From a virus: 64,000 nt of DNA. The position numbers and the translations under genes were made by a program. The stretch lies in the IMG/VR virus record IMGVR_UViG_3300025585_000040, positions 1 through 64,000 of that record; one strand, written 5' to 3'. Shown piece after piece: positions 1,981 through 53,720 of this stretch (within the stretch, counting starts at the first letter, position 1; the number at the start of each line of letters is the position of its first letter). Under the pieces are notes generated by a model, which saw nothing but the letters and a program-made list of their open reading frames with translations, searched no databases and had not been told where the DNA came from.

Positions 1981-3327
1981 GTGGCATATATTGGTGTCCA
2001 ACCAAAAGCAGGACAGTATCGTAAGCTTGACGATATTTCCAGTGGGTTTAACGGTGCCACAACAACCTTCACTACGTCGGTTGATGGAGATAACGTAACA
2101 GCTCCGGCACCACAACAACTGCTGGTATCTATTGGTGGTGTAATCCAACAACCCAATGTTGATTACGTCACCAATACGAACAGCATTACATTTACAACTG
2201 CACCCACTGCTGGATTAAGCTTCTTCGCGATCCTTATGGGTGACGCCGTTAACATCGGTACCCCCAGTGATGGAAGCGTTACAACGGCAAAACTTGTAAA
2301 TGACAGTGTAACGACTGCGAAATTGGACTCTGCTGGGATCGCACCGATCGTAACCAGCCTTAACGGCGGACCACTGAGTGGCGCTAGGAACCGCATCATC
2401 AACGGTGATATGCGGATTGATCAGCGCAATGCTGGGGCGAGTGTTGGCACTGGTTCCGGTCTAGGCGTCTATACCGTTGATCGGTGGGCAGTCAGTTACG
2501 CACAGACCAATAAACTTACAGCGCAACAAAGCTCTGTTGCCCCCACAGGATTCAAAAACTCTCTTTTAATAACGTCCTCTTCTTCTTACAGCGTTCTCGC
2601 TGGTGATTACTTCTTTCTCCGGCAACACGTTGAAGGATTTAATACTGCTGATTTTGGGTGGGGTGCTGCAGGAGCACAAACGGTTACGTTGTCATTCTGG
2701 GTCAGGTCGTCATTAACTGGCACCTTTGGTGGTTCGTTTAGAAATAACAGCACAAACCGAAGCTATCCATTCACTTATACTATTTCTGCTGCAAATACTT
2801 GGGAGCAAAAAACTGTCACAGTTGCTGGAGATACTTCCGGTACATGGACAACTGACAACACAAGTGGGATCGAGATTGATTTTGCGCTTGGTGTTGGATC
2901 AACATTCAGCGGAACGGCGGGCTCTTGGTCGGGCAGCAATTTTGTTTCTGCCACTGGAGCTACCTCAGTCGTCGGCACCAACGGAGCCACGTTCTATATC
3001 ACGGGCGTCCAACTCGAAGCCGGAACCGTCGCCACCCCGTTTGAACGCAGGAGCTACGGGCAGGAGCTGGCGTTGTGTCAGAGGTATTACGAACAAGGAG
3101 ATTACTACATCCGAGCTGGCGTGTCGAACGCAAGTATCGTCACAAGTTACTATACATCGTGTTACTTTATGGTCGAAAAACGTATAGTTCCGACTGTTAC
3201 CGGGACGAATGATCAAGGCACGTTTGCTGTCCAAAACATACGAACAAACACTGCAGGAGTTGGTCGCAGCGATACTGTTGCAAACGTAAACAACAGCGGT
3301 ACATTTATTGCAGCTGCGGAGCTTTGA
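1981..3327 (+). CDS. Tail fibre protein (448 aa)
   Basis: GTG start at 1981. The N-terminal about 95 residues ('AYIGVQP...', 'LVSIGGVIQQ', 'FTTAP') form a virion-attachment domain shared with the fibre at 50443-52038. A conserved block LNGGPLSGARNRIINGDMRI follows, then a beta-rich receptor-binding region, the shared block GVQLEAGTVATPFERR plus SYGQELALCQRYY, and a variable tip. Its companion gene starts 3 nt downstream. Known cyanophage fibres share this plan. It lies on the opposite strand to the other three fibres in the window, suggesting an inverted cassette. Confidence 0.88.
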   Translation: MAYIGVQPKAGQYRKLDDISSGFNGATTTFTTSVDGDNVTAPAPQQLLVSIGGVIQQPNVDYVTNTNSITFTTAPTAGLSFFAILMGDAVNIGTPSDGSVTTAKLVNDSVTTAKLDSAGIAPIVTSLNGGPLSGARNRIINGDMRIDQRNAGASVGTGSGLGVYTVDRWAVSYAQTNKLTAQQSSVAPTGFKNSLLITSSSSYSVLAGDYFFLRQHVEGFNTADFGWGAAGAQTVTLSFWVRSSLTGTFGGSFRNNSTNRSYPFTYTISAANTWEQKTVTVAGDTSGTWTTDNTSGIEIDFALGVGSTFSGTAGSWSGSNFVSATGATSVVGTNGATFYITGVQLEAGTVATPFERRSYGQELALCQRYYEQGDYYIRAGVSNASIVTSYYTSCYFMVEKRIVPTVTGTNDQGTFAVQNIRTNTAGVGRSDTVANVNNSGTFIAAAEL

Positions 3328-9591: not shown

Positions 9592-9927
9592 ATGACTCAA
9601 GAACATCCGATTACCCCATCGTCGGAACTGGTGGAGAAGTGGTACGAGGCCATAGACAACTCGTCCACATCCTGGAAGCAGGAGCTAACTACCCAAGCCG
9701 CCCGCTGGGGCGCTGATCAGGAATTGGAAGCGTGCTGTAAGTGGCTGGTCAAAAACGACTGGAAGGCTGTGCATCAACATCTCCGCGCCGCAAGACGCCC
9801 AAAGCCGCTGAGCTTAAAGGAAAAGGCGCTACTGCAGCTAGATACGCTCAATGCAGATCTGGGTATGCACGGCCTGGGATGCGACCTGTCCCAAATCCGC
9901 CGCGCTCTTGAATCCCTGCCCGATTAG
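9592..9927 (+). CDS. 'HPITP..LV..W' family protein (111 aa)
   Basis: ATG at 9592. Plan: N-terminal 'HPITPSSELVEKW', a 'WGADQELEACCKWL' core and a C-terminal 'ARRPKPLSLKEKAL...IRRALESLP' segment. The gene at 10598 has the same plan, so these are paralogs. I know the family from Synechococcus and its phages; function unknown. It opens the array of short paralogous genes. Confidence 0.7.
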   Translation: MTQEHPITPSSELVEKWYEAIDNSSTSWKQELTTQAARWGADQELEACCKWLVKNDWKAVHQHLRAARRPKPLSLKEKALLQLDTLNADLGMHGLGCDLSQIRRALESLPD

Positions 9928-12803: not shown

Positions 12804-12924
12804 GGCAGGGCTTCCGTCAGGTCGAACCGGGCTTCACGAGGCTCCGGTCTTAACGACGCCTGAACGCCGGTAACGCCACATGAATGAACAAGTGGAACGT
12901 CAAATCTAACATCACACAACAACC

Positions 12925-13224
12925 ATGAAAGGGTTCAGCACCAAGAAACCCAACACCCGTAAAGCCACTTATTGGGTTGCTTGCTACGTCCAACACGACG
13001 AGGACGATCCCATCTCAATCCAAAAACAGCAGATTGAGTACGTTCCTGGACAGGATAAAGAGCAGCTGATGCTCAAGGCATGTCACAAGCTGTTTAAGCA
13101 GGATCCGACTGTCTGGGAGGTTCTTGTGCACCAGGGGCCGAATGAAGTCCCAGACTCTGGAGATCAGGTCGTCGCCAGGTTAAGCCGCGAAAAATTTGAC
13201 GGGGCAGAGGAGTTGACAATATGA
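12925..13224 (+). CDS. Hypothetical protein (99 aa)
   Basis: ATG at 12925 follows the A/C leader ACACAACAACC. Soluble alpha/beta protein (ATYWVACYVQHDEDD...). Its last codons contain the -35 box of a strong promoter that fires downstream. No family recognised. Confidence 0.6.
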   Translation: MKGFSTKKPNTRKATYWVACYVQHDEDDPISIQKQQIEYVPGQDKEQLMLKACHKLFKQDPTVWEVLVHQGPNEVPDSGDQVVARLSREKFDGAEELTI

Positions 13225-13242
13225 ACAGATTTGTTTTATATT
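13213..13242 (+). promoter_or_regulatory. Sigma70-type promoter
   Basis: Perfect -35 TTGACA at 13213-13218, 18-nt spacer, -10 TATATT at 13237-13242. This is the best consensus promoter I see in the window. Predicted start is near 13249, directly in front of the hairpin array, and no convincing protein frame follows for about 420 nt. Confidence 0.7.
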
Positions 13243-13243
13243 T

Positions 13244-13510
13244 TGATCGGTTCTGATCAGACCCCAGTGGCCACTGGTTTGTAATCGATCCTCGTCCCTC
13301 GATTACAGTATGCCTTCGATGGGTGGAAGCATCGAAGCACGATGAAGCAAAACGGTAAGGCACGGGCCGCACCCGGTAAGGTTCCTAACGCGGAACATCC
13401 TTACCCTTTGTTCAAAGCAAACCGCCAGTTTGGATCGGACGATAGGATTGACCGCGATAACGGAGCCACAGGGTCGGCCTGTGAGCTAGGTTCCACCAAT
13501 TGCGGTTACG
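13244..13510 (+). ncRNA. Candidate structured non-coding RNA (hairpin array)
   Basis: Successive perfect stems: TGATC/GATCA (13244-13259), the palindrome CCAGTGG/CCACTGG (13264-13277), GTAATCGA/TCGATTAC (13281-13306), CTTCGATG/CATCGAAG (13314-13337), GGTAAGG-TTCC/GGAA-CCTTACC (13375-13405), CTTT/AAAG (13406-13417), and CACAGG/CCTGTG (13467-13483) inside a possible closing pair ACCGC/GCGGT (13451-13455 with 13502-13506). The only frame here, 62 codons from 13342, is low-complexity. A strong promoter precedes it. It may be a regulatory RNA; a replication origin built of hairpins is the main alternative. Confidence 0.55.
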
Positions 13511-13585
13511 GAGCCCCTCTTCTTCCTTGAAGTACTTGGCGCCGCGATAAGTCAGTTGAGTCATGGGAATACCCACGTACTCTCT

Positions 13586-13625
13586 ACTGTATAAATAAAG
13601 ACTGAAATGTAGTCGTTTATACAGT
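13586..13625. repeat. 10-bp inverted repeat with TATAAATA
   Basis: ACTGTATAAA (13586-13595) and TTTATACAGT (13616-13625) are perfect complements, with GACT/AGTC nested inside. The left arm contains TATAAATA in the plus direction; the right arm gives TATAAAC in the minus direction. The ACTGTATAAA string also occurs near 215-226. It may be a divergent promoter or operator pair. Confidence 0.5.
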
Positions 13626-13673
13626 TACATTCAAAGTTAAATTAATATAAAGATTTGAGGGCGCGTCCCCACC

Positions 13674-13820
13674 GTGGCCAACGGAAAGGGACGGTCAGTT
13701 ACCAAGCGCAGGAGACAGCAAAAACTACGCTTCCCTCGGATAAAGGGCCTGACGCTGTCCTTCTTCGGCCCATATTATAATAAGGCTTATGCACTGTCTA
13801 AAATCCCTTACCCGTGGTAA
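13674..13820 (+). CDS. Small basic protein (48 aa)
   Basis: GTG at 13674, TAA at 13818-13820. N-terminus strongly basic (KGRSVTKRRRQQKLR), C-terminus aromatic (SFFGPYYNKAYAL). Its stop overlaps the GTG of the next gene, as in coupled pairs. Likely binds nucleic acid; not recognised. Confidence 0.45.
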   Translation: MANGKGRSVTKRRRQQKLRFPRIKGLTLSFFGPYYNKAYALSKIPYPW

Positions 13821-14044
13821 CCTTAAGCAAACCAAAATTAATAGGATGCGTCTCTAGTGATTCCGGCAACCTCAGTGTGCTGGACCCGTGCCATCTCACA
13901 GTGTCTGAATCTGGTGAGGTACGCCTTCCGGCCTGGAACCTACACACAAACTTCAGCACCGAGCTTGGCGACGGCGAGTTCACCGTCTATGAGCAGAGGG
14001 ACCGGCGAGGTAGACTGAGAAGAGTGGTAATTGAAATCGATTGA
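13814..14044 (+). CDS. Hypothetical protein (76 aa)
   Basis: GTG at 13814 overlaps the previous stop. The pattern 'DSGNLSVLDPCHL...LGDGEFTVYEQRDRRGRLRRV' recalls small bacterial and phage proteins with the 'DSGxLxxxDPxxL ... GDGxYPVY' layout (beta-rich, role unknown). It ends in TGA overlapping a TTG start at 14041. Confidence 0.6.
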   Translation: MVTLSKPKLIGCVSSDSGNLSVLDPCHLTVSESGEVRLPAWNLHTNFSTELGDGEFTVYEQRDRRGRLRRVVIEID

Positions 14045-14307
14045 CCCCGGTTGACCCCAGGAAAACGCCGAACAAGTGGCTGCAGGCAGCGCTGCTGGAC
14101 ATGCTCGAGCAGAACACCGAGGAGTCGCGAGCGGATCTGGTGGAAGCAATTCAAATCCTCAGCCAGTCAATAGAACCTGGAGTAGTTGACTCAAGTTTTG
14201 GTCCTTGGATAGATCAATATCTTGAGCTTTTGGCTGAACACGAAAGCAATCAAAATAACGTTCGCCAACAGTATTCGCCAGAGGATCAACAGGCATCACC
14301 CCAGTGA
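14041..14307 (+). CDS. Hypothetical protein (88 aa), antisense overlap
   Basis: TTG at 14041 overlaps the previous stop (TTGA). The first half (KTPNKWLQAALLDMLEQ, ADLVEAIQILSQS) reads as real helical protein. From 14159 it overlaps the end of a convergent minus-strand gene, so one of the two C-termini is constrained by the other or one frame is not used. Confidence 0.45.
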   Translation: MTPVDPRKTPNKWLQAALLDMLEQNTEESRADLVEAIQILSQSIEPGVVDSSFGPWIDQYLELLAEHESNQNNVRQQYSPEDQQASPQ

Positions 14308-15293: not shown

Positions 15294-17141
15294 ATGTTGA
15301 GTCTCATTTGCGACATTGAAACGAATGGGCTCCTCCACGAATTGGATCGGGTTCACTGCATAGTTCTGCGAGACGTAACTACTGGTGAGGTATGGAGCTG
15401 TGCTGACCAGCCAGGGTATGTACCACTAGGAGAAGCGCTCGAGCTGATCCGCCGTGCAGATCGGCTTGTCGGGCACAACCTGATAAATTTTGACCTCAGG
15501 GCGCTAAAGAAGGTTTATCCTAATCTCAACCTGAGACCCGACTGCGACATCGTAGACACACTCATCATGAGTCGTGTTCTGTGGCCAGAGTTAGATCCTG
15601 TTGACGAGCAAAAGTTCTCTCACATCGACAAGAAATACAGGGGGCGACACTCACTTGCTGCCTGGGGCGAGCGGTTGGGCGTAGCAAAGATCAAATTCCA
15701 AGAAAATCAGAAGAAAGATCCAGATGTCGACAATGTCTGGGATCATTGGAGCGCTGAGATGCAGGAATACTGCGTCGGCGACACACTGGTAACTCAAGAA
15801 CTCTATGCGTACCTTGTCACCCAAGAATTGGATCCCCGCTGCCATAAGTTGGAGCACGACTTTGCTAAAGTCATGGCACTCCAAGAGGAATTCGGTTTCC
15901 CATTTAATGAGAAAGCGGCCTTCGCATTGGTTAACACCCTTAAGGCTCGTAGGGGTGAGCTCGACGATCAGCTCCAGGAAATATTCCCACCTATTGTCGA
16001 AGAAAGAATCTCCGCTAAAACAGGACGCAAACTTAAAACTAAGGTCACTCCGTTTAACGCCGGTTCGCGTACGCAAATTGCCGATCGGTTACGAGAGCGT
16101 TATCCTGAAATTAAGTTCGAATACAGCGAAAAGGGGAATCCGAAAGTCGATGATGATGTTCTGGAGCTCCTTGGAGAGAAATATCCGGAAGCTAAAGTCC
16201 TCGCTGAATATCAACTACTGAATAAGCGTCTCGGCCAAATCGCTGACGGTAAGGAGGCTTGGCTGAAACACTGTCGGCGATATGGCGACGGCCGGATCCA
16301 CGGTGGCGTCAAGACGAATGCTTGTGTGAGCGGACGTTGTAGCCACGTTTCTCCAAACATGGCGCAAGTTCCGTCTGTCGGACACACCTACGGTGCTGAA
16401 TGTCGTGCGTTATTTACGGCACCAGAGGGTTGGATGTTGATCGGTACTGACGCGGCAGGTTTGGAGTTACGTGCGCTCGGAGCTTGGTTAGCGCATTTTG
16501 ATGGCGGAGAATATGCAAAACTTGTGAGTACAGACGGGTTCGATGTTCATACTTATAACGCCAAATTGTTTGGTATTTATGACGGCCAAGGTGAGATTCA
16601 GAAAGCAACTAGAGACCTGAGTAAGCGTCTAATTTACGCCCTGCTGTACGGGGCTGGGGCTAAAAAAGTAGGCAGCGTCGTCGATATAACGTTAAGTGAG
16701 CAACAGCAATATGAGGTAGGGAAAAAGACTATCGATACTTTCTACCGTAATCTACCAGCAATCAAGAAGTTGAAAGATAAAATTGATGAGCGAATTACGA
16801 CGCGTGGTTACCTCGTCGGGATCGACGGTAGGCATCTTCAAATCCGCTCCAGGCACTCAGCTTTGAATCAACTGCTTCAGTCGACTGGGGCTGTGGTAAT
16901 GAAGAAAGCTACCTGTATTTTACACGAAGATCTGGAAGCCGCTGGATTAAAGCACGGGAAAGATTACGGATTCTGTGCCAACATTCACGACGAATATCAG
17001 ATTGCTGTACTACCTAACTATGTAGAACAAGTGCAGGAAGTATCGATTAAAGCAATCGAGAAGTCGGGTGAGTTCTTTGGTTTACTGTGCCCGTTCACTG
17101 GGGAATCCAGGTCTGGATACAATTGGAAAGAAACTCATTGA
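15294..17141 (+). CDS. Family A DNA polymerase with 3'-5' exonuclease
   Basis: Replicative polymerase. Exonuclease motifs: Exo I DIETNGL (D7, E9), Exo II around NLINFDL, Exo III YCVGDTLVT. Polymerase motifs: A 'DAAGLELRALG' near residue 385, B 'RDLSKRLIYALLYGAG' near 440, C 'IHDEYQIAV' near 564. At 615 aa it is shorter than T7 gp5 (704 aa) and about the size of other phage PolA enzymes; no 5' nuclease domain. The primase-helicase, SSB and exonuclease of the same replication set lie within 14 kb downstream. Confidence 0.96.
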   Translation: MLSLICDIETNGLLHELDRVHCIVLRDVTTGEVWSCADQPGYVPLGEALELIRRADRLVGHNLINFDLRALKKVYPNLNLRPDCDIVDTLIMSRVLWPELDPVDEQKFSHIDKKYRGRHSLAAWGERLGVAKIKFQENQKKDPDVDNVWDHWSAEMQEYCVGDTLVTQELYAYLVTQELDPRCHKLEHDFAKVMALQEEFGFPFNEKAAFALVNTLKARRGELDDQLQEIFPPIVEERISAKTGRKLKTKVTPFNAGSRTQIADRLRERYPEIKFEYSEKGNPKVDDDVLELLGEKYPEAKVLAEYQLLNKRLGQIADGKEAWLKHCRRYGDGRIHGGVKTNACVSGRCSHVSPNMAQVPSVGHTYGAECRALFTAPEGWMLIGTDAAGLELRALGAWLAHFDGGEYAKLVSTDGFDVHTYNAKLFGIYDGQGEIQKATRDLSKRLIYALLYGAGAKKVGSVVDITLSEQQQYEVGKKTIDTFYRNLPAIKKLKDKIDERITTRGYLVGIDGRHLQIRSRHSALNQLLQSTGAVVMKKATCILHEDLEAAGLKHGKDYGFCANIHDEYQIAVLPNYVEQVQEVSIKAIEKSGEFFGLLCPFTGESRSGYNWKETH

Positions 17142-31537: not shown

Positions 31538-31785
31538 CTAAGCTAGCCCGAACAGTTCCTTCAGTTCCGCCACGGTCAACCCAGCGGCGTTCAGCTTCTG
31601 TTCAGTGGTGATCACGGGGTTACCTCAGGTTCATCTGCCGGAAGCGGTTCGTTGCCTTCGGCTAGCCAGGCGACAAAATCGGGATACTCAGCACTGCAGG
31701 TCAGACGGCAAACGCCATCGTCATCAATGCGAGCGTAGATCTGAGGATCTTCAGGGTTGAATTTGGGAAGTTCTTTGTAGGTCAT
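31538..31785 (-). pseudogene. Split tail-fibre companion gene
   Basis: ATG at 31785 opens a 57-codon frame (MTYKELPKF..., WLAEGNEPLPADEPE) ending TGA at 31612-31614. A second frame from GTG 31615 (31538-31615, 25 codons) encodes the conserved tail [20 protein letters not shown] in the -1 phase. Together they equal the intact companions at 3331, 50203 and 52070. The junction ACC-CCG-TGA would give the full protein if the ribosome slipped -1 from CCG to CCC. Either a simple frameshift mutation or a regulated one. Confidence 0.7.
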
Positions 31786-32855
31786 AGCTCAGCACTCCAG
31801 GCGAGGTAACCGTCTCCAGTGTTTTGTAAGGATAAGAAACTGCAGTTTCCGGCAGTCAATCCGCTGGCAACAGAAACTCGAAGTGTTGCAGTATTTAAGG
31901 AACCAGTTTGATGCGTCGGAACTGCACTTGCAGTAATAAATGACCCGTTGCTGCTTAAAACTTGATAATCTGCTGCAGTACCAGATTGTTCAAGAGCTGT
32001 GGGCGAATCTCGCATCGTAACAGGATACTGAACCATATAATCTCCAGTGCCAGTGCCGATAGCTTGTCCCACGCCAATACGAATATCGACACTAGCGTTT
32101 CTGGTAATTCTGTAGTAATACCTCTGACACAACGCCAGCTCCTGTCCGTAGCTTCTGCGTTCAAACGGGGTGGCGACGGTTCCTGGTTCAACCTGCACCT
32201 GCGCGAGGTCCAGCGTATAGGTGCTGTTGATCGGCACCATAAACGTGAGACCAACGTAGTGATTAGTGCCGATGGTCTTGCCACTGATTGAGCCAACGTT
32301 GACGGTGTAGGTGTATTTCGTCCAGCTTGCGTTCAGCGCAACATTGGTTGCCAACGTGTAAGCCACTTGAGTAGAGCCGCCAGATCCAAAGGTCTGGGTT
32401 AGATAAATGTTGGGCAGGGTGCCTGTGCCCTTAGCATAAAAACTGATTGTTGCTGTTCGTCCTGCCAGAGTGCGTACGTCCTCAATGCGCTGCTCGACAT
32501 AGCAGCTACCCGTAGTTTGCCCACTCGGGGCGGAAGTAATTTGCCAACGCAGGAAATAAGTTGGTTCACCAGGAACGTCTGTCTGACCAGCAGTAAACGC
32601 TTGCTGCGAAACAGAACCATTACCACCAGTGCCGGCTGAACTGAAAACCCAACGATCAGGCCAGTAGAAGTTGCTAATTGGAGCCACCCATGTCGCTGTG
32701 CTGGTCCCTCTTTGCCAGATGTCGAAGTTGCCGTTGATAATGCGGTTCCTAGTGCCAGCAAGTGGTCCGCCGTTTAGGCTATTTACAGTCGCGTCATCAA
32801 ATGTTACATCCTGACTGGCTGTACCCGCGATTAATTGAGCTTTAGTTTGTGACAT
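31782..32855 (-). CDS. Tail fibre protein (357 aa)
   Basis: ATG at 32855. Short N-terminus, then the shared block LNGGPLAGTRNRIINGNFDI, a jelly-roll-like beta region and the shared GTVATPFERRSYGQELALCQ block before a unique tip. Lacks the long attachment domain of the 448- and 531-aa fibres, so it may assemble on another fibre part. The stop overlaps the start of the split companion (ATGA). Confidence 0.85.
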   Translation of the reverse strand: MSQTKAQLIAGTASQDVTFDDATVNSLNGGPLAGTRNRIINGNFDIWQRGTSTATWVAPISNFYWPDRWVFSSAGTGGNGSVSQQAFTAGQTDVPGEPTYFLRWQITSAPSGQTTGSCYVEQRIEDVRTLAGRTATISFYAKGTGTLPNIYLTQTFGSGGSTQVAYTLATNVALNASWTKYTYTVNVGSISGKTIGTNHYVGLTFMVPINSTYTLDLAQVQVEPGTVATPFERRSYGQELALCQRYYYRITRNASVDIRIGVGQAIGTGTGDYMVQYPVTMRDSPTALEQSGTAADYQVLSSNGSFITASAVPTHQTGSLNTATLRVSVASGLTAGNCSFLSLQNTGDGYLAWSAEL

Positions 32856-39962: not shown

Positions 39963-40253
39963 ATGACTAGATTTCTAGACACTCAAACCCACATCGCACT
40001 AATCTGCGACCAAGTGAAAGAATTATTGCTGGAAAAAAACAGGAAATACGGTGACAGCGCTTTAAACCCGACGAGAGTTTTTAGTAAAGCCGATCCAGTA
40101 GAACAGCTCTTAGTGAGAATTGACGATAAACTTAATCGAATTAAACAAGGTGCGGGACTCTTGGCTAACGATGAGGATGTGATCATGGATTTAATTGGTT
40201 ATCTGATCCTTCTCAAAATTGCCTTAAGTCGCAATACAGAGGTAGAAGTGTGA
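39963..40253 (+). CDS. Phage 'EKNRKYGDSALNP' family protein (96 aa)
   Basis: ATG at 39963. 'LLEKNRKYGDSALNPTRVFS' and 'VRIDDKLNRI' with 'EDVIMDLIGYLILLKIAL' define a small helical family common in phages, related in look to nucleotide-modification-associated (DUF1599-type) and MazG-like proteins. Probably acts on nucleotides; catalytic role unproven. Confidence 0.7.
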   Translation: MTRFLDTQTHIALICDQVKELLLEKNRKYGDSALNPTRVFSKADPVEQLLVRIDDKLNRIKQGAGLLANDEDVIMDLIGYLILLKIALSRNTEVEV

Positions 40254-40429
40254 TGGAATACGAAGAGTTTTTAGCAAACTATACGCCTGAATTGCAGCTT
40301 ATTGAGGCTCTGGATCTTCTTCAAAGGGGTAAACCAGTGGAGGCTGCTCAGCTCCTAGAGAGACTGGGCGTTGGGACCACAAGCGGAAAAAATACCGAAG
40401 AGATGCGCCACTTGGATCCCACTCCATGA
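40253..40429 (+). CDS. Hypothetical protein (58 aa)
   Basis: ATG at 40253 overlaps the previous stop; TGA at 40427-40429. Helical (ELQLIEALDLLQRGKPVEAAQLLERL). It overlaps the end of the convergent lysozyme gene by 131 nt on the opposite strand. The 1-nt stop/start overlap supports it. Confidence 0.5.
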   Translation: MEYEEFLANYTPELQLIEALDLLQRGKPVEAAQLLERLGVGTTSGKNTEEMRHLDPTP

Positions 40430-43139: not shown

Positions 43140-46019
43140 TTATGCCCAAGCACCGATTGAGGTGTCAGCGCCAGAGGCTCCAACTGGATATATTTTGATG
43201 TAGCTTCCAGTTTCTGTTGAATACTGTATCCCAGTGCTGGCAGAAAGAGTGTACTGAGGGATAAAAGTGCCACTTGCGTTGACGCTAAAAGATCCTCTAA
43301 TTTGCACAGAAATGCTATAGGTTGCGATTGTAATACCAGTAGCTAGGTTTATATTGGTAGCCACTGTTCTGAAGCCCAAAACTGGCGTGCTCGCCGTCGC
43401 GGTGCTTGTATTAACAGCAGCCACAACATACTGGTAGGCGATGTTGTTAAACGTGGCTGTCCCTCCAAATGAAATGCCAAAGCTATGAGAAGTAGTACCA
43501 GAACCCCTGGAAAATCTATATACAGCTTCAAACAAATACACCGTAGATCCGGCTACGGTGACGCTTTCCCCAAAAACGCTTTGGGCCGATGTGCCAGTGC
43601 CACCGGGCAATGCACTATTTAGCCTGTAAATCAGGACGGAAGGAGAAAGCCCTCGGCCAGCTGTGGCACTCGGCGTTGTGTAGACGACGTTGCCGTCGTA
43701 TTCGACTGCGCCAGCCGTTGCTGTCGTCAGGTTGGTGCCTGACTGCATGGTGAGCGGTGACAGCGAAGTGGTGCCAGCCGCAAGCGTCAGGTTGCTTGTC
43801 AGCGTACCTCCGGTAAAGCCGCCACTAGGTGGGGCCGCCCAAGTGCCGTCTGCTCTTAAGAAATTGGTGGTGCCACCGCCTGAAGAAGGGGTTAAACCGG
43901 CTAGGGTGTCAGTGAACAAGGGCAAAGTGACATCAGTGCCGGTGCTCGACTCAAGAAGCCTACTGCTGGCTGTGTACGACAGATCGGTGCCGGCTTGGGT
44001 GTTACTGAGCGTTCCCCCACTTAACGACAACCCGGTACCAACACTAATTTCCTCCGCGACACCTGTTCCTGCGGTTGTTCGACCGAGAAGCCGGTTTGTC
44101 GCCATGGAAGTGGAAATGGTCGGCGTAGTTCCTCCACTGCTTGTAATTGGACCAGTAGCCGAAACTGTTGTTACAGGTGCAGTTCCGTTAGAAGCTGAAG
44201 TGACCCGTCCTTTGGCATCAACAGTAATGCTGGCGTATGTATAAGAATCTGCTGTTACACCAGTATTTGAAAGCGTAGCTGCAAACGAGCCAGTACCCGA
44301 ACCGGTGACATCTCCAGTTAAGGTAATAGTCTGATCGCCTGTATTTGTTCCGCTACTAGTACCAGAAAAAGTACCATTCTGCGTCGCAAGAGTTCCGAGG
44401 CCTAGAGTAGTTCGCTGAGCTGCTGCATCTACGTCATCTAATAAGGCACGTCCAGCTGATGTGCAAGTAATCTCCTCGATAACACCGGCGCCTGAGCTAC
44501 TGCGGCCTAATAATTTATCGGTTGCAGATACGTCTTGAATCTTGCCATAGGTGACTGTACTGTTGTCGATTGTCCAAGTAGCACCTGACGAAGAAACAGT
44601 AATATCACCTTTGTCACCATCAGTTAATCCAACAACATTAGAAGATAGTGTTCCACCAGAGAGACTTAAACCTGTACCGACACTGATCTCCTCCGCAACG
44701 CCTGTTCCTGCAGTAGACCGACCGAGGAGCCGGTTGGTCGTCATCGACGTAGAAATTGTTGGGGTAGTTCCTCCACTACTGGTAATTGGACCAGTAGCAG
44801 ACACTGTTGTTACAGGTGCAGTTCCATTAGAAGCTGAAGTGATTCGTCCTTTAGCATCAACAGTAATGCTGGCGTATGTATAAGAATCTGCTGTTACACC
44901 AGTATTTGAAAGCGTAGTTGCAAATGAACCAGTACCTGAGCCAGTAACGTCACCGGTCAATGTAATAGTCTGGTCACCTGTATTTGTTCCACTGCTCGTG
45001 CCAGAAAAAGTACCATTCTGCGTCGCAAGAGTTCCGAGGCCTAGAGTAGTTCGCTGAGCTGCTGCATCTACGTCATCTAATAAGGCACGTCCAGCTGATG
45101 TGCAAGTAATCTCCTCGATAACACCGGCGCCTGAGCTACTGCGACCTAATAGTTTATCGGTTGCGGATACGTCCTGAATTTTGGCGTAGCTAATTGCACT
45201 ATTATCTACCGACCATGTGGCCCCTGATGCGGAAACAGTAATATCGCCTTTGTCTCCGTCAGTTAATCCAACAACATTAGAAGATAGTGTTCCACCAGAG
45301 AGACTTAAACCTGTACCAACACTGATCTCCTCCGCGACGCCCGTTCCTGCAGTAGACCGACCGAGGAGCCGGTTGGTCGACATGGAGGTAGAAATAGTCG
45401 GCGTTGTGCCCCCACTGCTTGTGATCGGGCCAGTAGCGGCTACTGAAGTAACAGGAGAAGTACCGCTTGAGGCAGAGGTAATCCTGCCTTTAGCGTCGAC
45501 TGTTACAGTCGCATACGTATAAGAATTTGCGGTGACACCTGTATTTGAAAGCGTAGCTGCAAATGAACCAGTGCCTGAACCGGTTACATCTCCAGTTAAG
45601 GTAATAGTCTGATCGCCTGTATTTGTTCCGCTACTAGTACCAGAAAAAGTACCATTCTGCGTCGCAAGCGTTCCGAGGCCTAGAGTAGTTCGCTGAGCTG
45701 CTGCATCTACGTCATCTAATAGGGCACGTCCAGCTGATGTACAAGTAATTTCCTCGATAATACCAGCGCCTGAGCTACTGCGACCTAATAGTTTATCGGT
45801 TGCGGATACATTTTGAATTTTGGCATAAGTAACAGCGCCATTATCGATCAGCCAACTAGTACCGCTTCCTGAGACGGTAATATCGCCTTTATCTCCATCA
45901 GTGACGCCAGGGGTTCCCGGAGGTCCCTGCGGGCCGGCCGTTTTTACCTTGACAATTTTGCTATTGACCGCATTGACAACGGTTTTATTGGAGTTCGTGG
46001 TAATAATAATGCGGGTCAT
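43140..46019 (-). CDS. Large repeat tail fibre (959 aa)
   Basis: ATG at 46019. N-terminus with a short collagen-like run (GPQGPPGTPG), then three tandem repeats of 213 aa built on 'DGDKGDITVS', 'ATDKLLGRSSSGAG', 'AAQRTTLGLGTLATQ', 'LTGDVTGSGTGSF' and 'TNRLLGRSTAGTGVAEE', and a C-terminal about 290-residue tip with a receptor-binding look. Trimeric phage fibres carry such repeats. The start overlaps the end of the baseplate-like gene at 46016. Confidence 0.87.
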   Translation of the reverse strand: MTRIIITTNSNKTVVNAVNSKIVKVKTAGPQGPPGTPGVTDGDKGDITVSGSGTSWLIDNGAVTYAKIQNVSATDKLLGRSSSGAGIIEEITCTSAGRALLDDVDAAAQRTTLGLGTLATQNGTFSGTSSGTNTGDQTITLTGDVTGSGTGSFAATLSNTGVTANSYTYATVTVDAKGRITSASSGTSPVTSVAATGPITSSGGTTPTISTSMSTNRLLGRSTAGTGVAEEISVGTGLSLSGGTLSSNVVGLTDGDKGDITVSASGATWSVDNSAISYAKIQDVSATDKLLGRSSSGAGVIEEITCTSAGRALLDDVDAAAQRTTLGLGTLATQNGTFSGTSSGTNTGDQTITLTGDVTGSGTGSFATTLSNTGVTADSYTYASITVDAKGRITSASNGTAPVTTVSATGPITSSGGTTPTISTSMTTNRLLGRSTAGTGVAEEISVGTGLSLSGGTLSSNVVGLTDGDKGDITVSSSGATWTIDNSTVTYGKIQDVSATDKLLGRSSSGAGVIEEITCTSAGRALLDDVDAAAQRTTLGLGTLATQNGTFSGTSSGTNTGDQTITLTGDVTGSGTGSFAATLSNTGVTADSYTYASITVDAKGRVTSASNGTAPVTTVSATGPITSSGGTTPTISTSMATNRLLGRTTAGTGVAEEISVGTGLSLSGGTLSNTQAGTDLSYTASSRLLESSTGTDVTLPLFTDTLAGLTPSSGGGTTNFLRADGTWAAPPSGGFTGGTLTSNLTLAAGTTSLSPLTMQSGTNLTTATAGAVEYDGNVVYTTPSATAGRGLSPSVLIYRLNSALPGGTGTSAQSVFGESVTVAGSTVYLFEAVYRFSRGSGTTSHSFGISFGGTATFNNIAYQYVVAAVNTSTATASTPVLGFRTVATNINLATGITIATYSISVQIRGSFSVNASGTFIPQYTLSASTGIQYSTETGSYIKIYPVGASGADTSIGAWA
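43990..45907 (-). repeat. Three tandem 639-bp repeats
   Basis: The string GTACCATTCTGCGTCGCAAG recurs at 44371, 45010 and 45649, exactly 639 bp apart each time, with near-identical flanks. The unit encodes 213 aa of the fibre. Boundaries given are approximate. Near-identity suggests recent expansion or gene conversion. Confidence 0.8.
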
Positions 46020-47771: not shown

Positions 47772-47855
47772 GCCACCATGCCGGAACGGTCTACGGATCG
47801 CACTTAAAATGCGTCGGGAGTTTCTCCCTTGTGGGTTCGAATCCCACTGGTGGTA
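47772..47855 (+). tRNA. tRNA-Leu (anticodon TAA)
   Basis: Acceptor GCCACCA pairs with TGGTGGT (discriminator A47855). D-arm CCG/CGG, anticodon loop CTTAAAA giving TAA, one mismatch at the stem top (T27-T43), long variable arm GGGAG/CTCCC, T-arm GTGGG-TTCGAAT-CCCAC. Class II structure fits tRNA-Leu reading UUA. CCA is not encoded. A single good tRNA among HNH genes; UUA codons are rare in many Synechococcus. Confidence 0.92.
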
Positions 47856-50442: not shown

Positions 50443-52038
50443 TTACAGCTCAATGGAGGCAGCCCAAGTTACGGTTGTGTAAAAGTAGCTTCCGCTTGTT
50501 GGAGGTGACGAAGTTCCACCAACACTGGGTCCAAACCCTTGCAAGCTATTATATTGATTTCCAAGGTTCCAATTTGTGATATAAGTTCCAGGGGAAAAAT
50601 TGGTATTGGTGGTTGGAGTCCCAAAACTAATAGTAGGAAATGCGCGCTTACTTGCATTGAAGCCAACGTTCGAGGAAAACCAAATGCCGTTGCCATAAGT
50701 AGTTGTATAGCTAAAGCTCAGCACAAGAGAGCCGGTCTCGTAGTACCTCTGACACAACGCCAGCTCCTGCCCGTAGCTCCTGCGTTCAAACGGGGTGGCG
50801 ACGGTTCCGGCTTCGAGTTGGACGCCCGTGACGCGGAATGTCGAGCCGTTGGTAGAGATCGGATCAACAGCACCAGTGACAGACCACAGTGATGATCCAG
50901 ACCAAGCGCCTGCTGTGCCTTTGAATGAGCTACCAACGCCAAGTGAAAAAGCCAGGTTGATACCAACGCCGGTATCAGTCAACCAAGTACCACTTGTGTC
51001 CCCGGTGATCGAAACTGTTTTTTGCTCCCAAGTATTTGCGGCGCTGATTGAATAACTGAATGGGTAGCTGCGATCCCCAGCAGAGTTTCTGACGACACCT
51101 CCAAAGGTTCCGGTAAGCGAGGAGAATACCCAAAACGAAAGCGTAACCGCTTTTGCACTAGCAGTACCCCAGGCAAGATCGGAAACGTTATTACCTTCAA
51201 TACGCTGAGCAATGATGTATCGCTGAGATGCACCAATCGAAGCGTCTGCAGTGGTAACTGTCGCCAGCAATGAGTTGGTAAAACCAGCCGGTGCGCTAGT
51301 GCTTGAGGCAAGCGTAAAAACACCATCAGTAGCTTCTCCGGTACCGAGCCAGCGATCTACTGAGTAGAAATTGGTCGATCCGTCATTAACTGTTTGAGTT
51401 GCGTTTCTCTGATTGATCCGCATATCACCGTTGATGATGCGGTTGCGGGCGCCACTCAGTGGTCCGCCGTTAAGGCTATTTACTTGTGCATCTCCCGCCA
51501 CATGTAACAAAGTAGCTGGGCTCGAAGTTCCAATGCCCACTCGATTATTAATTGCATCAACATAAACAGTGTTACTGTCAATATTGATTGATCCACTAGA
51601 ATCAACAGTTGCTCGGGAAACACCAGCCGTAACAATACCAAGCTGATTCGACGCTGGGTTATAAATACCTGTATCCAAATCTGTATCGAACGTAATGCTA
51701 GGCGTAGAAGCAGAACCGCTAGGGAAATTAGCGCCAACGTTAATGTAATCAGCACCGGCGAGTATTACGCCGAAGAAGTCCTCTCCTGTGTTAGGCGCAG
51801 AACTAAAAACAATACTGCCGCCACTCAAACGAAAACCTTCTGCGCCAGTATCATCAGGACGTTGTACAACGCCGCCGACTGAGATCATGCATTGATTAGA
51901 ACTCAGCGGCGCAGGAACTGGGGCAACACCCCCAACAGTCAGCGCAAATGAAGTGGTTACACCATTAAAAGAACCACTGATGTCATCGATGTTGGTGTAG
52001 CTTGGGTATGCAACCTGAAGGCTCTGCCCGATATACAC
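50443..52038 (-). CDS. Tail fibre protein (531 aa)
   Basis: ATG at 52038. N-terminal attachment domain like 1981-3327 (QVAYPSYTNIDDISGSFNG), then 'FDTDLDTGIYNPASNQLGIV' and 'RVGIGTSSPATLLHVAGDAQ' (pyocin/phage-fibre shaft repeat), the shared LNGGPLSGARNRIINGDMRI and GTVATPFERRSYGQELALCQ blocks, and a unique tip. The longest of the four related fibres. Confidence 0.88.
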   Translation of the reverse strand: MYIGQSLQVAYPSYTNIDDISGSFNGVTTSFALTVGGVAPVPAPLSSNQCMISVGGVVQRPDDTGAEGFRLSGGSIVFSSAPNTGEDFFGVILAGADYINVGANFPSGSASTPSITFDTDLDTGIYNPASNQLGIVTAGVSRATVDSSGSINIDSNTVYVDAINNRVGIGTSSPATLLHVAGDAQVNSLNGGPLSGARNRIINGDMRINQRNATQTVNDGSTNFYSVDRWLGTGEATDGVFTLASSTSAPAGFTNSLLATVTTADASIGASQRYIIAQRIEGNNVSDLAWGTASAKAVTLSFWVFSSLTGTFGGVVRNSAGDRSYPFSYSISAANTWEQKTVSITGDTSGTWLTDTGVGINLAFSLGVGSSFKGTAGAWSGSSLWSVTGAVDPISTNGSTFRVTGVQLEAGTVATPFERRSYGQELALCQRYYETGSLVLSFSYTTTYGNGIWFSSNVGFNASKRAFPTISFGTPTTNTNFSPGTYITNWNLGNQYNSLQGFGPSVGGTSSPPTSGSYFYTTVTWAASIEL

Positions 52039-52306: not shown

Positions 52307-53362
52307 TTACAGCTCGGCGTTAAACGTCATCGTCGCTGTTGCGCTTGCCGTGCGAAGTATGCACCCAGCGTTGGCGGTAGTGCCTGAGCAACTTAAGTTC
52401 ACGGCAACAGCAGTGGGGCTGGCCAAATCTAAAACTATAGCTGTGCCGGAACGACCAGATGATCCAGAATCCATAATTGCAAACGTGTTTGCTGCAGTGC
52501 TAGAAAAAGTTGGCGTAGCCCGCATTGCTACAGGCAGCGCGGCTGAAGTTTTTCCAATGGTAGCAGTTTCGTATCCGCTGCCAAAGGGAGCGTTATCACT
52601 ATTACCAAAAACCCAGCAATACCTCTGACACAACGCCAGCTCCTGCCCGTAGCTCCTACGTTCAAACGGGGTGGCGACGGTTCCTGGTTCGAGCTGGACG
52701 CCCGTGATCTCAAAGAAATCGTTGGCTCCTGCAGTACCGGTTAGACTACCTTGGAAAATGACGCCAAGTTGCGTAGCGGATGCGCCGACAGACCCGGTAA
52801 GCGTGAACTTCTGCCAAGAAGTCGTCAACGTAGCACCACTATTGATGATTGCAGTCTGTCCTGTCCAAGATCCACTCATAAAAGAACTTGCAGACTGGTC
52901 TGTTCCGGTTCCCGTGTAAACGGCGGCAGTCAGCCCACTGCCGGTTGCTGAATAGTTTGCACCAGCCCTAGCCCAAAACGAAAGTGTTACCGAGCCGCCA
53001 GCCAAATCGGTGCAGTTAAGCGTTTCTAAAATCTGAATGACAGACAAGTTACCAGTCGCAGTTTGGCCACTTGTTCTCTGAGCACGAGCGCAGTTGGTAA
53101 AACCAGCCAACCCTCCAGTGGACTGCTGGCTCAGTGTTCCTGTGACGCTAGTGCTGTAAAGCCCTGCAAAGCGATCCAGAAAGTACGTAGGTGTCGTCCC
53201 CAGTGCAACAGAAGTCCCGCGCTGTGCAATCCGCATATCACCGTTGATGATGCGGTTCCTAGCGCCACTCAGTGGTCCGCCGTTTAATGCAGAGATCTGT
53301 ACGTTGCTAATTGTGCCAAGATCACCATCAATCCGGAACAGATTAACTTCAGTTAAAGCCAT
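52307..53362 (-). CDS. Tail fibre protein (351 aa)
   Basis: ATG at 53362 (MALTEVNLFRIDGDLGTISN) preferred over 53392. Shared blocks LNGGPLSGARNRIINGDMRI and GTVATPFERRSYGQELALCQ flank a beta-rich domain; unique C-terminal tip. Short N-terminus like the 357-aa fibre. Confidence 0.86.
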   Translation of the reverse strand: MALTEVNLFRIDGDLGTISNVQISALNGGPLSGARNRIINGDMRIAQRGTSVALGTTPTYFLDRFAGLYSTSVTGTLSQQSTGGLAGFTNCARAQRTSGQTATGNLSVIQILETLNCTDLAGGSVTLSFWARAGANYSATGSGLTAAVYTGTGTDQSASSFMSGSWTGQTAIINSGATLTTSWQKFTLTGSVGASATQLGVIFQGSLTGTAGANDFFEITGVQLEPGTVATPFERRSYGQELALCQRYCWVFGNSDNAPFGSGYETATIGKTSAALPVAMRATPTFSSTAANTFAIMDSGSSGRSGTAIVLDLASPTAVAVNLSCSGTTANAGCILRTASATATMTFNAEL

Positions 53363-53375
53363 TATCCAATCCTCC

Positions 53376-53720
53376 TTACGGGGTCTGCTCAAGATAGCTG
53401 ACTGTTAAATCAACAGCAGACGCTGTTCCACACCTAGCTTGTAGCTTATCGGCAGATTCAAGAATGACTTTGTTGCCATTGATGATCTCAAGTGTAGAGC
53501 CCGAAGGAACAGGTGCATTGCGGATTAGATAAACATCATCACCAGTAGATTTGTCAATGTAAATATCAACATTAGCACTCGTACCAGTCTTGTTAGATGC
53601 CAGTACACTCAAGATAATCAGTGTTGCTGTACCACCGGCAGTGACAACCGTTGCGCTTGGATCCGTAATGACAGCAGTTACAAGGCTGGCCTTAGTGTCG
53701 TTTTTGAAAGTATTTGCCAT
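53376..53720 (-). CDS. Virion accessory protein (114 aa)
   Basis: ATG at 53720. 'LVTAVITDPSATVVTAGGTA' and 'TSANVDIYIDKSTGDDVYLI' give a small beta-sandwich typical of phage tail or decoration proteins. In the fibre cluster. Confidence 0.68.
   Translation of the reverse strand: MANTFKNDTKASLVTAVITDPSATVVTAGGTATLIILSVLASNKTGTSANVDIYIDKSTGDDVYLIRNAPVPSGSTLEIINGNKVILESADKLQARCGTASAVDLTVSYLEQTP

Follow-up and report, generated by a model that had tools for sequence, protein, structure and literature searches.

The plus strand of the window (the whole stretch analysed here, bases 1-64000 of a virus record that is 77,651 bases long) very probably encodes an independent, structured, non-coding small RNA of about 165 nt that belongs to S-EIV1-type cyanophages and lies between 13249 and about 13414, the 3' end being inferred from pairing. 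We consider it an independent non-coding RNA because its first base stands at a fixed distance from a promoter-like box, its helices change in compensatory fashion, no reading frame is kept through it, it occurs in single copies, and its neighbours differ between phages. Its structure is visibly kept by selection, with shape conserved more than sequence, and it falls outside all 4227 Rfam models. A preliminary description, made from the letters of the window, had proposed an unannotated phage RNA here, and this proposal is now strongly supported by sequence. Relatives were collected and compared with R1, a covariance model built from 20 sequences, the window included.

Regarding the phage itself, IMG/VR contigs contain 25 relatives of the window's DNA polymerase A (15294-17141), which shares 41% identity with its counterpart in the cultured freshwater cyanophage S-EIV1, and the large terminase (TerL) matches that of S-EIV1 in two pieces with 63% and 66% identity. 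On these two matches the window phage is taken as an S-EIV1-type cyanophage, and its host is probably a Synechococcus-like cyanobacterium. In the terminase comparison, residues 199-530 of the S-EIV1 protein (L197:11081-13621) had no match in the window's record (G000:C1:68833-70335), where the two matches adjoin, each reporting a 510-aa frame, and residues 189-286 matched a Brevundimonas phage sequence carrying the annotation ribonucleotide reductase; the S-EIV1 terminase may contain an intein. Moreover, four of 20 scanned proteins of the window (1981-3327, 31782-32855, 50443-52038, and 52307-53392) matched the tail-fibre family phrog_4492, so the phage seems to carry several fibre paralogues.

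The R1 model matched the window's own record once only, at 13249-13410 over model positions 1-163 of 163 with 104.4 bits, a score to be expected by construction, the window being one of the sequences behind R1. The RNA was carried by 13 of the 25 polymerase-relative loci, and no R1 match was found in the searched loci of the other 12, 11 of which also lacked a match across the record at E <= 1; therefore, it is either dispensable for some relatives or diverged beyond the model there. Pattern scans followed by R1 raised the number of IMG/VR contigs with the RNA to 48 by our count, some of them near-copies, and the pattern matches not counted as R1 RNA amounted to 2 of 24, 2 of 19, 2 of 24, 91 of 112, and 2 of 19 over five scans (likewise our counts); one of the two from the third scan, L083, scored 11.6 bits (E 0.56) with R1. 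Thirty of the 48 contigs were close to the window (at least 54.9 bits) and 18 were more divergent, 14 of the latter being S-EIV1-like by sequence and neighbours, including L099 with a weak R1 match (E 0.0093). L134, of the S-EIV1-like kind with its 5' end cut off, matched at E 0.008, and L124, L187, and L150 stood apart among the divergent contigs, the first two having a DUF4278-like neighbour as in the window group. An abiF RNA was also detected in L150 at 1886-1922 (+; 55.7 bits, above gathering), about 1.1 kb from the R1 RNA. In S-EIV1, which is not in the model, a divergent copy was found at 40161-40322 (+; 21.3 bits, E 9e-5) in a gap that carries no annotation and is flanked on both sides by minus-strand genes, meaning that the R1 RNA occurs in a cultured phage with a named host, Synechococcus sp. 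PCCC-A2c, and is directly testable. In the whole-record search, 9 of 20 records matched, each with one full-length copy. Many family sequences are closely related, and counts within the family do not represent independent events.

Other searches marked out the limits of this distribution. A near-identity DNA search of 12.5-14.5 kb in a phage collection gave zero matches, and so did an exact search of IMG/VR with helix P3 of the window, which is the most variable helix and uninformative on the family. In distant blastn searches with the RNA as query, L008 gave short matches in four records (E 2-6), L109 matched S-EIV1 alone (84.6% over 52 nt), and none was found for L124. In 84,980 species genomes of cellular organisms, the P1-P2 pattern was found 11 times, with a best R1 match covering model positions 1-28 or 1-13 in seven cases, 1-163 at no more than 15.0 bits in three, and 2-12 in one; these matches, selected by pattern, were taken as chance.

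The helices of the predicted RNA all lie on the plus strand. The RNA opens with the 5'-terminal hairpin P1 (13249-13263; GGU[U]CU-GAUC-AGACC), whose stem has a bulged U and whose loop is self-complementary; among 39 sequences, three of its four pairs change on both sides. Next comes the palindromic P2 (13264-13277; CCAGU-GGCC-ACUGG; four of five pairs change on both sides). P3 (13281-13306), with UCCUCGUC in its loop in the window, is variable and sometimes absent, as in L011 and L022, while P4 (13311-13339; eight of eight pairs; missing from L014) carries the loop GGUGGAAG in the window and often AGUGGAAG or similar in relatives. A conserved linker, CGAUGAAGCA or similar (13340-13349), leads to P5, which pairs 13354-13360 with 13399-13405 (seven of seven pairs) and closes a three-way junction with P5a (13363-13375; CGGG-CCGCA-CCCG; five of seven modelled pairs) and P5b (13381-13396; GUUCC-UAACGC-GGAAC; four of four modelled pairs). 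The P5a loop is CCGCA or CCGA across the family. The first four hairpins of the preliminary description are therefore present where it had placed them (P1-P4, 13249-13339), and P5, P5a, and P5b come after them as far as 13405, but its array of at least seven hairpins reaching 13510 fails beyond 13412, in a minus-strand gene to which the last ~100 nt of the proposed RNA belong. The distal ACAGG..CCTGT stem at 13468-13482, compared by eye, was not kept in six relatives.

The linker may additionally pair with the 3' tail as a root of P5. The linker-own-tail duplex had a mean energy of -6.58 versus -4.61 with swapped tails, and none of 2000 permutations was as low (n = 39); the own tail was better than swapped tails in 26 of the 39 sequences, with the window among the other 13 (own -4.4 vs. 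swapped -5.7). If formed in the window, this root would bring the 3' end to about 13414, so that the RNA overlaps the minus-strand gene at its stop codon.

Covariation across relatives supports this fold. When the window and 11 loci were aligned behind the upstream plus-strand gene, a conserved -10 box and hairpins changing in matched pairs were seen. In A1, an alignment of 20 sequences made by sequence alone (L014 and L038 were left out of 22 distinct ones) and scored on the structure taken from one member, L008, 87.0% of 768 cells were paired and both sides had changed in 26 of 41 pairs, with a covariation score of 0.382 versus 0.172 in shuffles and 0.070-0.126 with partners slid by 1-3 columns. 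P3 was badly aligned by sequence (64.0% of its cells paired), lowering the A1 figures. Fitting 39 sequences to the model gave 93.0% paired cells, changes on both sides in 37 of 41 pairs, and a covariation score of 0.541, compared with 0.162 after shuffling and 0.037-0.107 after sliding. Because the 39-sequence alignment was fitted to the structure, A1 provides the fairer test. Folding energy was less telling, since the 162-nt window RNA had z = -0.86 (36 of 200 shuffles as stable) and a 321-nt stretch z = -2.9 (1 of 100 shuffles as stable; reverse strand z = -1.65). Single-sequence folding energy is thus weak evidence, and covariation, promoter phasing, and structural conservation are strong evidence. 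Two further pairings were considered and rejected: kissing of the P5a loop with that of P5b, in which by eye the letters mismatch in some subgroups, and pairing of P2 with a repeated gene leader (CACTGG...), which looks like the end of an upstream gene. Among 31 sequences scanned for the leader form, it was found once in L009, once in L153, and as four loose matches in one S-EIV1 stretch, and not in the other 28.

The two 5' hairpins deserve separate attention. In divergent members, P1 reads GUC[U]CC, GCU[U]CC, or GUCU with mostly matching partners, and the 12 stem variants of P2 keep their partners, in two cases by G-U pairing (a spurious row was excluded). The P1 tetraloop was self-complementary in 37 of 39 sequences (UGCA in 25, GAUC in 7, UCGA in 4, and GGCC in 1), as was the P2 tetraloop (37 of 39; GGCC in 35, AGCU in 1, and GCGC in 1), compared with 1/16 for a random tetramer. 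The exceptions to the rule were L151 (P1), L093 (P1 and P2), and L107 (P2; a misreading by the rule, the usual P2 being present by eye). A switch between self-complementary loops requires two or more changes, and none of the loops read was an intermediate. That both loops stay self-complementary when their letters change suggests homodimerisation. Consistent with this, in four sequences tried, the computed duplex of the first 31 nt was more stable than two monomers by 19.7-20.7 kcal/mol, versus a mean gain of 6.8-7.7 and a best of 16.1 with random non-self-complementary loops, although palindromic hairpins of any kind can form a duplex. On these loop sequences and computed energies, it is possible, at a tentative level, that the RNA acts as a dimer via P1 and P2. 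A natural homodimer or chain, with two linking points per molecule and multivalent display of P4/P5 to a host target, is a speculative extension in which we place little more than a quarter of our confidence.

Alternatively, P1 and P2 could be DNA operators bound by a dimeric repressor just behind the transcription start, with the RNA part additional. Their location at +1 to +30 and the persistent self-complementarity of their centres agree with this arrangement, but the P2 half-sites vary as matched pairs through the 12 stem variants, unlike the half-sites expected for a protein, and the dyad is broken by the bulged U of P1, making operators improbable.

The promoter also points to transcription of the element. 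A sigma-70-type promoter with the TTGACA-18-TATATT boxes of the preliminary description is present at 13213-13242 (+), matching 11 of 12 consensus positions, and its predicted start, G13249, coincides with the first base of the conserved RNA. Promoter-like sites numbered four in the 1.2-kb region versus a mean of 1.3 in shuffles. Among 40 homologues (the 39 plus L099), a -10-like hexamer lies at exactly -12..-7, 6 nt before the first base, with at least four of six matches in 32 and a poor match (three of six or fewer) in 8; the TATAAT match averages 4.65 of 6 at this offset and 1.68 at other offsets. The -35 box reads TTGACA in 3 of the 40 and TCGACA in 8, all of the window group, and is weaker or absent in many others. 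The S-EIV1 copy has TATACT six bases ahead of its first G. A clear intrinsic terminator was not found at the 3' end of the RNA, the only plus-strand terminator-like site being P2 itself.

The pairing bias gives the strand. On the plus strand, G-U pairs outnumber A-C pairs by 36 to 18 in the sequence-only alignment A1 (P3 left out) and by 53 to 22 in the fitted alignment, which indicates that the plus strand is the functional one, as a nucleic acid tolerating G-U. The same bias bears on the suggestion, made alongside the RNA in the preliminary description, of a hairpin-type replication origin or, more broadly, a cruciform acting as DNA. In the window, the DNA polymerase gene does follow the element at a distance of 1.9 kb, and the cumulative GC skew of the window reaches its minimum at the end of the 12-14 kb bin, albeit with small amplitude. 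However, the twofold excess of G-U over A-C, the promoter-like box phased to base 1, and the location in S-EIV1, where the copy is about 7.6 kb from the polymerase gene and the skew minimum (1-43 kb) falls in the 32-34 kb bin and not at 40 kb, are all contrary to a DNA-level element, which we regard as very unlikely.

The preliminary description held that no sensible frame is present. This is true of the RNA, through which no conserved reading frame was found: 24 of the 39 sequences lacked an open frame in any of the six, the open frames of the other 15 were spread over all six with at most 6 sequences per frame, and two window ORFs overlapping the RNA gave partial matches only, in a few records. 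It fails beyond 13412, where the minus-strand gene at 13412-13564, convergent with the RNA and containing the distal stems, is conserved as protein and lies outside the RNA. This gene encodes a DUF4278-like small protein (Pfam PF14105, E 1.6e-4, 22.4 bits, below the cut-off of 25.3) that is 64.8-82.0% identical (best match per locus) in 9 of the 25 polymerase relatives, with mismatches of 159, 111, and 340 at codon positions 1, 2, and 3 over 13 distinct homologues. Stem conservation, compensatory changes across relatives, and the search for a protein frame, i.e., three of the points on which the early proposal was to be judged, all came out in favour of an RNA in A1, the 39-sequence alignment, and the frame scan. 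Of 40 records examined, 18 had a DUF4278-related gene no more than 2.5 kb from the RNA.

Gene order around the RNA differs between the two phage groups. In the neighbourhood comparison (INDEPENDENCE), the RNA of the window group is co-oriented with the replication genes, whereas in the S-EIV1-like set the nearest shared small genes are on the strand opposite the RNA. One gene family is upstream on the RNA's strand in six window-group records and downstream on the other strand in five S-EIV1-like records. A same-direction gene directly downstream, as a leader or riboswitch would have, was found neither in the window, where a minus-strand gene follows, nor in S-EIV1, where the next annotated plus-strand gene starts at 44548, 4.2 kb downstream of the RNA. 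Since neighbours and relative direction differ in this way, the R1 RNA is probably independent and trans-acting, and not a leader or terminator. A cis-acting leader, attenuator, or bidirectional terminator would fit the position between convergent genes in the window and the terminator-like score of P2 followed by TTTG; yet the gene behind the RNA is on the opposite strand in the window, both flanking genes of the S-EIV1 copy are on the other strand, P2 starts 15 nt from the transcript start of its own promoter, and the P4/P5 part is conserved as well, so that such a cis element has very little probability in our view.

Taken together, an independent RNA acting in trans may work as follows. 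A host-type RNA polymerase would transcribe the R1 RNA, probably early, given that the small genes surrounding R1 are close to the replication genes. At the 5' terminus, P1 would shield the transcript end, and the P5 three-way junction would close the 3' part. Two copies would then pair through the self-complementary tetraloops of P1 and P2, and the RNA, most likely as a dimer, would act in trans on a host protein or complex, which it would bind and draw away, serving as a decoy or as a regulator in host RNA metabolism or defence. That the target is a host protein is a tentative guess, to which we assign about a third of our confidence.

In addition to R1, the locus contains a CyVA-1-like match at 13734-13817 (-; 22.5 bits, E 0.038, below the gathering threshold of 41.4), whose place is conserved. 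A second CyVA-1 match was found in L068 at 2426-2493 (-; 26.1 bits, E 0.16, also below 41.4), and none in five further whole loci scanned to E 3. In 13 sequences, the site shows a TATTATA-like box and two hairpins (L011 being misaligned by eye), with 95.6% of hairpin cells paired, both partners changed in 9 of 11 pairs, and a covariation score of 0.632 versus 0.211 shuffled and 0.098-0.150 slid. The hairpins are also present in L003 and L013, whose records have no R1 match. Judged by these pairing patterns, the CyVA-1-like element is a second structured, covarying RNA in the same locus, pointing opposite to R1.

With respect to known families, the 4227 models of Rfam 15 gave no match within 13249-13414 at the gathering threshold; at E up to 10 over 12850-14100, three weak matches appeared, all outside the R1 RNA, and no Rfam match at the place of R1 was reported in the scanned relatives. 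In L002, a weak PhotoRC-I match was seen at 9855-9884 (+), its 22.6 bits (E 0.14) falling short of the cut-off of 45. By title and abstract start, no published description of the R1 RNA was found among the matches listed for S-EIV1 or cyanophages, CyVA-1, and structured RNAs of phages or viral metagenomes, a scope outside which the S-EIV1 genome paper fell. The kind is already known, i.e., phage-encoded structured RNAs with an open role such as GOLLD and ROOL, and the R1 architecture is absent from the families searched. R1 differs from CyVA-1 (RF02965), whose weak match lies about 320 bp past the R1 end on the other strand, in being a separate molecule that itself has no CyVA-1 match.

The pRNA of phage phi29 combines a three-way junction with loop-loop contacts between copies, and R1, with its three-way junction and suggested inter-copy loop contacts, resembles it in both themes while belonging to a different phage type; a packaging RNA forming a ring on the portal is nevertheless the least probable alternative, given no Rfam family match in the RNA, a TerL 63-66% identical to that of S-EIV1 and of a type not known to need an RNA, and relatives without a model match. 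The manA and wcaG RNAs have been described in T4-like cyanophages, manA commonly in potential 5' UTRs (PMC2864571). R1 is like manA, wcaG, PhotoRC-II, and CFrI in being a non-coding RNA element carried by a cyanophage (PMC2864571, PMC9964418), and unlike them in having no Rfam match and no close same-direction gene behind it in the window and in S-EIV1.

Close parallels are also GOLLD and ROOL, phage or prophage RNAs that form RNA-only cages, with intermolecular contacts, kissing loops included, reported as conserved; GOLLD often exceeds 800 nt, and tRNA islands are frequent neighbours of both (PMC12286853). Relative to that account, R1 is likewise a phage-encoded structured non-coding RNA whose self-complementary loops suggest, by computation, contacts between copies, whereas it is only ~165 nt long, does not match the Rfam models of GOLLD and ROOL, and lies far from the window's only tRNA, at 47.8 kb. 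The latter, a tRNA-Leu (TAA) at 47772-47855 (+), was the only tRNA found in the window. If R1 does dimerise, RNA-only assemblies would be extended from large RNAs to a compact phage RNA of about 165 nt.
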